From positions 186,001 to 250,000 of the forward strand of contig NZ_RKLR01000002.1 of NCBI RefSeq assembly GCF_019599465.1: DNA of 64,000 nucleotides, written 5' to 3'. Origin of the DNA: Haloarcula rubra (GTDB taxonomy: Archaea > Halobacteriota > Halobacteria > Halobacteriales > Haloarculaceae). A model generated the notes under the pieces. The model worked only from the letters and a program-made list of their open reading frames with translations. It had not been told where the DNA came from and searched no databases. Of the stretch, positions 54,055 through 56,438 are shown one piece after another. Both the position numbers and the translations under genes were made by a program. Position 1 is the stretch's first letter, and the number at the start of each line of letters is the position of its first letter.

Positions 54055-54867
54055 ATGAGACGAGCCACTCCGGCACTCCTGGCCCTCCTGCTCGTGACGA
54101 GCGCGCTGGCTGCGGTGCCAGCGGCCACGATGGCACAGGAGACGTCGACCCAGACCGAACAGCGCGGTGAGAACGCGACCGTCGCCCCCGGCGCGCAGTT
54201 CGCCGGCGCGGTCGGCGTGCAGGGCGCCGAACTCGGCGGCGAGGTCGAGGCCCGCGCGTACGGCATCAGCGTCGCGAAGGCCAACACCGACACCGCCCGC
54301 GCGGCCATCGTCGCCGACGAGTCCGGCGAGCTAGAGGGCCGTCTCGAAGAGCTCCGACAGCGCAAGGCCGCCCTCCAGCAGGCCCGCGAGAACGGGTCGA
54401 TGAGCGAGGGCGAGTACCGCGCCCGGATGGCCCAGCTCCACGCCGAGACCCGGACCGTCGAGCGGTTGGCCAGCCAGACCAACGAGACGGCGAGCACGCT
54501 GCCCGCCGCGGCGCTCGAGGCGAAGGGCGTCGACATGGAAGCGGTCCGCTCGCTGGCCCAGCGTTCCGCGGAACTGACCGGCCCCGAAGTGGCCGAAATC
54601 GCCCGCAGCATCGCCGGGAACGACGTCGGCGAGGGCGTCGGACCGGCCGAGGACCGCGGGCCCGAGCAACGAGCGGACCGCGGCGAACGCAACGGAGCGG
54701 ACGCCGACGCCGGGACGAACGGCACGGTCGACGTGGAGACGAACGACACCCAGACGACCGTGAAGACGACGGCGAACACGTCCGTCGAAGCCGAGACCGG
54801 CGACCTGCCCGACACCAACACCACGGCGACCAACGAGACCGAGCCCTCGCCCGACGGCGACTACTGA
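54055..54867 (+). CDS. Exported Ala/Glu-rich protein
   Basis: ATG 54055 gives 270 residues with a signal peptide (RRATPALLALLLVTSALAAVPAATMA), an N-terminal domain (GAQFAGAVGVQGAELGGEVEARAYGISVAKA), a helical stretch with repeated acidic and basic residues (LEELRQRKAALQQARENGS), and a long low-complexity tail of Asp/Asn/Thr/Glu (AGTNGTVDVETNDTQTTVKTT). It is secreted or surface-exposed. No enzyme motif is seen. A TATA-like TTTATAC at about 54019-54026 precedes the start by about 30 nt. It lies upstream of the arginine leader. Confidence 0.75.
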   Translation: MRRATPALLALLLVTSALAAVPAATMAQETSTQTEQRGENATVAPGAQFAGAVGVQGAELGGEVEARAYGISVAKANTDTARAAIVADESGELEGRLEELRQRKAALQQARENGSMSEGEYRARMAQLHAETRTVERLASQTNETASTLPAAALEAKGVDMEAVRSLAQRSAELTGPEVAEIARSIAGNDVGEGVGPAEDRGPEQRADRGERNGADADAGTNGTVDVETNDTQTTVKTTANTSVEAETGDLPDTNTTATNETEPSPDGDY

Positions 54868-54925
54868 CGACACCCTGACAGTGGTTCCCGTGTGACTCTC
54901 GGCCACACTGTTTCTAACACGGAAG

Positions 54926-54933
54926 CTATTAGT
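54926..54933 (+). promoter_or_regulatory. TATA-like box of the arginine leader
   Basis: CTATTAGT, centred about 30 nt before the leader ATG at 54960. No comparable AT-rich element lies in the 30 nt before argG itself, so argG is probably transcribed from here. Confidence 0.55.
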
Positions 54934-54959
54934 ACGGGACCTACAGTAGTCGGACGTAC

Positions 54960-55055
54960 ATGACGCGGACCACCGTCGCCGACGCGTTCGCCGCCGCCGA
55001 CGAGCGGTCCGTCCGCTTCTCCCCGAGCCGACGACGACGACGGGCCCTCTGCTAG
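54960..55055 (+). CDS. Arginine-rich leader peptide upstream of argG
   Basis: ATG 54960 opens a 31-codon frame MTRTTVADAFAAADERSVRF...ending SPSRRRRRALC, too short for normal gene finding. Eight of 31 residues are Arg, and residues 24-28 are five consecutive Arg codons, CGA four times then CGG (55029-55043). The promoter is placed to make this the first translated frame of the argG transcript. The stop lies in the loop of a GC hairpin (55042-55059) and argG starts 120 nt downstream. This has the features of an amino-acid-responsive leader peptide. No such attenuator is known to me in haloarchaea, so the regulatory role is an inference; the protein itself need not have a job. Confidence 0.6.
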   Translation: MTRTTVADAFAAADERSVRFSPSRRRRRALC

Positions 55056-55059
55056 GCCC
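55042..55059 (+). promoter_or_regulatory. Attenuator-like hairpin after the Arg codon run
   Basis: GGGCC (55042-55046) pairs with GGCCC (55055-55059), an 8-nt loop containing the leader stop codon, followed by a pyrimidine-rich tract (CCACTACTCTCCTCAC). A second possible structure pairs AGCCGAC (55026-55032) with GTCGGCT (55111-55117); this excludes the local hairpin GCCGG-N8-CCGGC (55107-55124). Mutual exclusion is what an attenuator needs, but short matches are common in GC-rich DNA. Confidence 0.45.
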
Positions 55060-55175
55060 ACTACTCTCCTCACTTCGTTTCACGGTTCGTCTCGACTCCG
55101 AGTACCGCCGGTCGGCTGTCCGGCGTGTCAGTCCAAACCGACAGTCACACCACGGAACCCACACAGTACACACCT

Positions 55176-56438
55176 ATGCCAGAAGGAAACGGAACCGTCG
55201 CGCTCGCCTTCTCCGGTGGGCTCGACACGACAGTCTGCGTATCGCTGCTGAAAGAGGAGTACGGCTACGACGAGGTCATCGGCGTCACCGTCGACGTCGG
55301 CCAGCCCGACTACGAGTTCGAGGAGGCCGAGGAGACGGCCGAGGCGCTCGGCGTCGAGCAGCACGTCGTCGACGCGAAGGAGGAGTTCGCGGACCTCTGT
55401 CTCAAGGCCGTGAAGGCCAACGCCGACTATCAGGGCTACCCGCTGGGCACCGCGCTCGCCCGCCCGGTTATCGCGAAGGCCATCCTCTCCGTCGCCGAGG
55501 AGGAGGGGTGTAACGGCATCGCCCACGGCTGTACCGGCAAGGGCAACGACCAACTGCGCTTCGAGGCCATCTGGCGCGACTCGGACCTGGAGGTCATCGC
55601 CCCGGTACGCGAACTCGGCCTGACCCGCGAGTGGGAGAACGAGTACGCCCAGGAGAAGGGCCTGCCCGTCGAGGGCGGCGACGGCGGCCGCTACTCCATC
55701 GACACGAACCTCTGGAGCCGTTCCATCGAGGGCTCCGAACTCGAAGACCCCTCGACCATCCCCGAGGACGACATCTACAAGTGGACCGAGAACCCCTCGG
55801 GCAAGGACGCCGAACTCGTCGACGTCGAGTTCGAAGACGGCGAGGCCGTCGCTATCGACGGCGAGGAACTGGGGAAGGTCGAACTCATCGAGCGACTCAA
55901 CGCACAGGCCGGTGCCCACGGCATCGGCCGCACGGACATGATGGAGGACCGCATGCTCGGCCTCAAAGTCCGCGAGAACTACGAGCACCCCGCGGCGACG
56001 GTGCTCCTGACGGCCCACGAGGCGCTGGAGGGCCTCGTCCTCACCCAGGAGGAGCGCGCGTTCAAGGCCCAGGTCGACCAGCAGTGGTCCCAGAAGGCCT
56101 ACGAGGGCCTCGTGGATGCGCCGCTCGTGAGCGCACTCGAAGCGTTCATCGACGACACGAACGAGCGCGTCACCGGCTCAGTCACCGTGAAACTCGAGGG
56201 CGGCCACTGCCGTCCGGTCTCCCGCGAGTCCGACTACGCCGTCTACAGCGAGTCCGCCGCGTCTTTCGACGAGGAGGACGTCACCGGCGGCATCACCCAG
56301 CAGGACGCCACCGGCGTCGCGAAGTACCACGGCTTCCAGTCCCGTCTCGCCAACGGCATCTTAGAGAACGCGAAGAAGGGGACGGCCGTTCCGGACGGGA
56401 GCGGCGAGGACGACCACGGGGAGGGCTCGGAGGAGTAA
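55176..56438 (+). CDS. argG: Argininosuccinate synthase
   Basis: The 420-residue enzyme opens with GTVALAFSGGLDTTV, the PP-loop pyrophosphatase motif SGGLDT that binds ATP, and continues with conserved stretches (AHGCTGKGNDQLRF, GLTREWENEYAQ). It joins citrulline and aspartate with ATP to argininosuccinate. ATG 55176 is taken as start since the family motif starts eight residues later; a GTG/ATG further upstream at 55125 would add a non-conserved segment. It is 4 nt from argH, so the two form one operon behind the arginine leader. Confidence 0.95.
   Translation: MPEGNGTVALAFSGGLDTTVCVSLLKEEYGYDEVIGVTVDVGQPDYEFEEAEETAEALGVEQHVVDAKEEFADLCLKAVKANADYQGYPLGTALARPVIAKAILSVAEEEGCNGIAHGCTGKGNDQLRFEAIWRDSDLEVIAPVRELGLTREWENEYAQEKGLPVEGGDGGRYSIDTNLWSRSIEGSELEDPSTIPEDDIYKWTENPSGKDAELVDVEFEDGEAVAIDGEELGKVELIERLNAQAGAHGIGRTDMMEDRMLGLKVRENYEHPAATVLLTAHEALEGLVLTQEERAFKAQVDQQWSQKAYEGLVDAPLVSALEAFIDDTNERVTGSVTVKLEGGHCRPVSRESDYAVYSESAASFDEEDVTGGITQQDATGVAKYHGFQSRLANGILENAKKGTAVPDGSGEDDHGEGSEE

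Follow-up and report, generated by a model that had tools for sequence, protein, structure and literature searches.

The DNA ahead of argG in Haloarcula rubra raises the question of whether a short open reading frame (ORF) ending in a run of arginine codons is a regulatory leader of the arginine genes behind it, and if so, of what kind. We analyzed this leader in the window (the whole stretch of 64,000 nucleotides under study), in haloarchaeal argG loci, and in a scan of part of the same genome. Our reading, held as probable, is that the arginine operon is controlled through this leader by ribosome-mediated attenuation, and that a leader before ilvB, in front of the branched-chain operon, is the second of the two members of the same haloarchaeal class.

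Anatomy, distribution and constraint of the argG leader

The window is haloarchaeal, and the closest argG among the fetched loci was that of Haloarcula pellucida (97%). The following features were identified:

54927..54934, forward strand: TATA-box-like element TATTAGTA, read directly, putative leader promoter
54960..55055, forward strand: leader ORF of 31 codons, MTRTTVADAFAAADERSVRFSPSRRRRRALC and stop, with ATG at 54960 and counterparts in 78 parsed argG loci
55029..55043, forward strand: five arginine codons, CGA CGA CGA CGA CGG (codons 24-28), proposed arginine sensor
55042..55059, forward strand: stop-spanning hairpin GGGCC-CTCTGCTA-GGCCC (arms 55042-55046 and 55055-55059), proposed attenuator
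55053..55055, forward strand: leader stop TAG, read directly, across the loop and 3' arm of the hairpin
55060..55076, forward strand: pyrimidine- and A-rich tail ACTACTCTCCTCACTTC 3' of the hairpin, 17 nt without G
55176..56438, forward strand: argG, with ATG at 55176, first gene of a putative operon
From argG to beyond 63998, forward strand: putative operon argG-argH-argW(lysW)-argX-argC-argB-argD-argE-argF, with functions assigned by sequence similarity and gene order

The original prediction had described a TATA-like element, a 31-codon ORF with five arginine codons at 55029-55043, a GGGCC/GGCCC hairpin overlapping the last of these codons, and a pyrimidine-rich tract behind it. Direct reading and a script recovered the first three as described, with the arginine codons at the stated coordinates, and the tail proved to be without G from 55060. 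The leader stop had been placed inside the hairpin loop; the hairpin does span the stop, and TAG straddles the loop and the 3' arm. The nine arg genes of the putative operon are also listed for haloarchaea (PMC10433800).

By both reading and script, TATTAGTA lies 33 nt 5' of the leader ATG at 54960, and the TATA-like element mostly starts 30-36 nt before this ATG across the parsed leaders. Such a position predicts a leaderless or nearly leaderless leader mRNA, and the leader ORF is probably leaderless. Leaderless transcripts account for 72% of the transcription start sites (TSSs) of protein-coding genes in H. volcanii and are the commonest kind there (PMC4983044). The main texts of the publications searched contained neither a TSS nor a footprint for HVO_0049, the argG of H. 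volcanii.

No U-run or T-run follows the GC hairpin, the leaders having a C/U/A-rich tail, and a sigma-70/intrinsic terminator scan of 54860-55200, whose promoter part is not applicable to archaea, returned no terminator-like site. The hairpin and tail do not form a canonical archaeal or bacterial-type intrinsic terminator. No Rfam family matched the leader above its gathering score, the only hit being a sub-threshold CrfA on the other strand (E 0.46).

We fetched 80 haloarchaeal argG loci, of which two had no upstream DNA, leaving 78 parsed leaders, window included. A short ORF with arginine codons and a hairpin spanning or abutting its stop was observed in all 78, with one locus (L073) in which the script chose the wrong hairpin and the correct one was read by eye. 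Absence from relatives had been set beforehand as grounds for refutation, and no haloarchaeal argG locus with upstream sequence lacked the element. In an even sample of the phylum, the element was present in all 20 further genomes of the order, five being read by eye, and absent from 20 more distant Halobacteriota, comprising 19 genomes outside the order and the deep-branching G134. On this distribution, the element looks like a haloarchaeal invention. In L032, the leader is enlarged by several imperfect hairpin-like repeats, with the terminal arginine codons and hairpin kept and the continuity of the ORF unconfirmed; enlarged leaders were also seen in L034 and L016.

Of 13,785 stop triplets of the own genome, 6.9% were spanned by a stem with 5 or more Watson-Crick pairs, and 0.08% by such a stem together with a G-poor tail; the argG leader is a real observation, far from chance. 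CGA made up 67.5% of the arginine codons in the last 10 positions of the parsed leaders, against 12.1% in 242 genes of the own genome and 1.7% in argG bodies. In every parsed leader, the 15 nt 5' of the hairpin held 2-5 arginine codons. The hairpin arms were observed to change with pairing kept, from GGGCC/GGCCC to the flipped GGCCC/GGGCC in Haloferax and Halorubrum and to GGGGTC/GACCCC in Halorussus and Halobacterium, with GGGGC/GCCCC and CGGGC/GCCCG also present. The loop measured 3-8 nt, and the leader stop lay in the loop or across the loop and 3' arm in 65 of 78 leaders and 1-3 nt past the hairpin in the other 13. Across all 78, G was nearly absent from the first 15 or so positions of the tail.

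Pairing was counted per sequence by script, without a tree-based covariation statistic, because MAFFT alignments of the hairpin and the 5'UTR misplace stems. The same per-sequence count gave two main phases of the hairpin relative to the reading frame; since the frame slips against the hairpin while the arginine run stays, the hairpin does not account for the run. Leaders varied in ORF length (about 16-57 aa) and in N-terminal sequence, and the peptide was unconserved except for the arginine run. Codon meaning and hairpin are under separate selection. Folding energy was unremarkable for the whole leader (z 0.12) and for the hairpin segments (z -0.4 to -1.3). With neither unusually stable, thermodynamic folding was dropped as evidence, and the case for the hairpin is comparative.

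Promoters and RNA structure between the leader and argG

No TATA box was found directly before argG in the window, nor before argG in Haloarculaceae, Halorussus, Halobacterium, Halocatena, and others, so that argG in these lineages should depend on the leader promoter. A second TATA was present 30-34 nt before argG in Haloferacales, Natrinema, Halostella, and some others (L041-L043, L046-L048, L050, L051, L054, L056, L057, L059, L061-L063, L065-L076, and L078-L080). The absence of an alternative promoter before argG, as originally proposed, thus holds for the window and Haloarculaceae but fails in Haloferacales, Natrinema, and some others. In the lineages with a second promoter, control by the leader is limited to the long transcript; the second promoter, which is unexplained, would bypass a terminator in the leader, and this counts against the attenuator. 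Several of these genomes also share a conserved stretch around AGCGTCTCTATAGGCATC between the leader and the second promoter, a possible operator.

An H-type pseudoknot could be folded between leader and argG in most of the 29 Haloarculaceae loci (most of L001-L027). In the window, its stems are as follows:

55106-55110 / 55121-55125, forward strand: pseudoknot stem 1, CGCCG/CGGCG, extendable by one pair, with pairing-preserving changes among loci
55114-55120 / 55140-55146, forward strand: pseudoknot stem 2, GGCTGTC/GACAGTC, with pairing-preserving changes among loci

Stem 1 varied within Haloarculaceae as CCGCCC/GGGCGG, CCGTCC/GGACGG, CTGCCG/CGGCAG, and CGCCCA/TGGGCG, and stem 2 as GTCGGGT/ACCCGAC, GTCCGGT/ACCGGAC, GTCTGTC/GACAGAC, GACTGTC/GACAGTC, and GCTGGGT/ACCCGGC. 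The mean best pseudoknot score in this family was 30.9 versus 8.7 for dinucleotide shuffles, and the 49 loci outside Haloarculaceae had no pseudoknot as a group (3.3 versus 5.4 for shuffles). The structure was weak or absent in a few Haloarculaceae, including L003, L004, L006, L008, L011, L029, and L030, and in most loci of the family 8-30 nt separated its end from the argG ATG. Its unconserved loops speak against a small-molecule riboswitch; the roles it may have are to tune argG translation or to shield the 5'UTR. A conserved RNA pseudoknot in this position implies that the leader transcript reaches argG.

The local hairpin originally proposed at 55107-55124 is indeed paired, but as stem 1 of this conserved pseudoknot. 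The pairing of AGCCGAC with GTCGGCT, proposed as an alternative to it, is real in the window but unconserved, being found only there and in the nearest relative, L001. No antiterminator pairing was conserved across Haloarculaceae, and the arginine codon run had no conserved pairing to the argG 5'UTR. A classical trp-type antiterminator is thereby excluded; direct masking of the hairpin by a ribosome needs none.

These structures bear on translational attenuation, a possible though unlikely reading in which leader, stalled ribosome, and pseudoknot gate the argG start without early termination of transcription. It draws on the conserved pseudoknot near the argG ATG in most Haloarculaceae loci, on the lack of a T-run terminator, on an A/C-rich unstructured argG start region, and on the actinobacterial LEU elements, which join a leader peptide and a pseudoknot (PMC1262725). 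The leader and hairpin, however, are universal, whereas no other tested haloarchaeal family yielded the pseudoknot. Further, argG of Haloferacales has its own leaderless promoter, and an mRNA from there would be out of reach of translational control by the leader.

A second leader before ilvB

We scanned 1.66 of the 4.67 Mb of the own genome for a TATA element, a short ORF, a stop-spanning stem, and a G-poor tail, with no amino-acid bias, and further leaders may exist in the remainder. Scanning 1.264 Mb gave three matches, namely the argG leader, a match before gyrB, and a leader before ilvB; a further 0.394 Mb gave one unrelated match (L322) without amino-acid context, for a total of four. 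The match before gyrB (L116:16011-16049), a GTG-started ORF encoding VNGAPTRRRAGR with a stop-spanning GGGGC hairpin, could not be aligned in several close relatives and is probably due to chance. The second leader is the following:

L215:14549-14635 (contig C31, about 514.6 kb), reverse strand: ilvB leader MTAHAGVRVRPIASGADLLRDVRIVGAV and stop, with hairpin AGGGGC-TGTATA-GCCCCT, 118 nt upstream of ilvB

This leader was clear in 47 of 48 haloarchaeal loci (L242-L271 and L295-L312), 42 automatically and five by eye, with L262 divergent, and it was absent in two deep-branching genomes, L313 and L314. The leaders ended in IIVGV, IIVGA, RIVGA, and similar sequences (RIVGAV at L215), and their tails were nearly free of G in the same way as those before argG. 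Isoleucine was encoded by ATT in 75% of cases versus 9.5% in the genome, and valine by GTA in 56% versus 3.4%. Longer hairpins could explain part of the GTA bias, although the bias persists where the hairpin excludes GTA. In L296, the leader before ilvB has a very isoleucine-rich end, ASIIAIIAIIGVS, and hairpin arms TATTGGGG and GCCCCATA.

Isoleucine and valine codons stand before ilvB and arginine codons before argG, so the control codons match the product of the operon in both cases observed. This match in two operons of one architecture is the strongest argument for codon sensing. The pair amounts to a natural experiment, with like hairpin logic and different codons, that makes codon sensing directly testable. 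Analogous leaders were not found at trpE, trpC, hisG, hom, pheA, carA, and a second leuA-like locus of relatives.

The same comparison weighs on the remaining explanations. The fungal arginine attenuator peptide (encoded by the CPA1/arg-2 upstream ORF) is a conserved peptide that stalls the ribosome at high arginine, and a nascent arginine-rich peptide could likewise arrest the ribosome on free arginine here. The conserved C-terminal patterns RRPGR and RRRAL and the closeness of the ORF end to the control element would fit such an arrest peptide. The C-terminal residues, however, track the hairpin sequence and differ by clade (PGR, PGL, ALC, PAL, PGSL), the upstream peptide is unconserved, and the ilvB leader of like architecture, which also uses rare codons, ends in the unrelated IIVGV; we regard arrest by the peptide as very unlikely.

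Still less credit can be given to a DNA operator, in which the inverted repeat GGGCC-N-GGCCC would bind a transcription factor and the ORF would be incidental, as a short GC-rich palindrome 3' of a promoter might suggest. Against this, the loop varies from 3 to 8 nt and the arms change freely with pairing kept, the palindrome always ends an ORF of variable length, and the argG and ilvB leaders have different arms but a common position, stop, and tail, with codons that match each product. The least credible proposal is a small basic protein, made from the ORF and functional in a way unrelated to cis regulation, for although the presence and start of the ORF are conserved, only the arginine run is kept within a product of widely varying length and N-terminal part, and the hairpin and tail are non-coding features.

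Proposed attenuation and comparison with known systems

The core of the original prediction, an arginine-responsive leader peptide with an attenuator, is supported by the conservation of the leader and by the ilvB leader of like build; the response to arginine is itself inferred. In the attenuator we favor, the promoter would yield a leaderless or nearly leaderless mRNA with the short leader as its first ORF. Rare codons for the end product (CGA for arginine, ATT for isoleucine, GTA for valine) would be read near the leader end, directly 5' of the GC-rich stop-spanning hairpin. With arginine scarce, a ribosome would wait at CGA and cover the 5' arm, the hairpin would stay open, and transcription would proceed into the operon. 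When arginine is plentiful, a ribosome would terminate at the stop and leave, and the hairpin would form behind RNA polymerase and end expression early, most likely by premature transcription termination, either hairpin-type or assisted by FttA/aCPSF1.

There are no expression data, and transcription and translation of the leader, stalling, and the sign of regulation are all inferred. That a stalled ribosome prevents the hairpin is inferred from geometry; with the arginine codons abutting the hairpin and a classical antiterminator lacking, the stalled ribosome more likely masks the hairpin directly. Termination as the output is likewise an inference, with factor-dependent termination by FttA as an alternative. 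In H. volcanii, 503 mapped 3' ends had a hairpin no more than 10 nt upstream, and hairpin S12 terminated 59% of transcripts in reporters (PMC7237163). FttA favors U-rich RNA, and competition between it and the coupled ribosome has been proposed (PMC11616081).

Several results speak against the attenuator, namely the lack of a T-run, a hairpin that is not unusually stable, and the lack of analogous trp, his, hom, pheA, and carA leaders. In S. coelicolor, putative control codons before ilvB were swapped without effect (reported in PMC1262725), which calls for caution in the present reading. With these reservations, haloarchaea probably sense amino-acid shortage by stalled ribosomes. We lean, with somewhat less assurance than for the arginine operon alone, toward a general archaeal attenuation in which arginine and isoleucine/valine operons across haloarchaea are controlled by leaderless leader peptides, with rare end-product codons set against a hairpin over the stop and a G-free tail, through a new conditional terminator and direct ribosome masking. 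If true, archaea exploit the coupling of transcription and translation for regulation; the leaders would supply a defined signal for conditional termination that lacks a U-run and would explain the tuning of two large haloarchaeal biosynthetic operons, in a group that includes the standard model H. volcanii.

Leader-peptide attenuation is a textbook mechanism of bacteria. No description of archaeal leaders of such a kind was found in the open-access literature searched; subscription papers and preprints were outside the scope of the search, and priority is uncertain. The fungal arginine attenuator peptide has in common with the argG leader a short upstream ORF for arginine synthesis, whereas the haloarchaeal peptide is unconserved beyond its arginine codons. 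Hairpin S12 of H. volcanii (PMC7237163) is likewise a haloarchaeal RNA hairpin linked to termination, but it lies in a coding region, without a leader peptide or a tie to an amino acid.

The actinobacterial LEU element before leuA (PMC1262725) also combines a codon run in a leader peptide with a conserved pseudoknot ahead of the first structural gene. In that element, the codon run pairs with the Shine-Dalgarno box into a base stem and encloses the pseudoknot, whereas the argG pseudoknot stands apart, is confined to one family, and is not tied to the leader hairpin; the argG leader does not qualify as a LEU element. The closest known case is that of the actinobacterial ilvB leaders (PMC1262725), in which isoleucine, valine, and leucine control codons overlap the terminator hairpin, no clear antiterminator is needed, and the gene is the same as in the haloarchaeal ilvB case; they differ in being bacterial and in having poly-U after the hairpins, and no arginine counterpart is described there.

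The bacterial trp, his, leu, and ilv attenuators have in common with the haloarchaeal leaders a short leader ORF, rare control codons for the end product, a downstream hairpin, and a matching operon. The haloarchaeal leaders differ in their TATA promoter, inferred leaderless ORF, codons abutting the hairpin, and stop in the hairpin loop, with no conserved antiterminator and with a G-free C/U/A tail in place of the U-run. Apart from the classical antiterminator and the U-run, the haloarchaeal leader, judged by its sequence, meets the sequence criteria of a leader-peptide attenuator.
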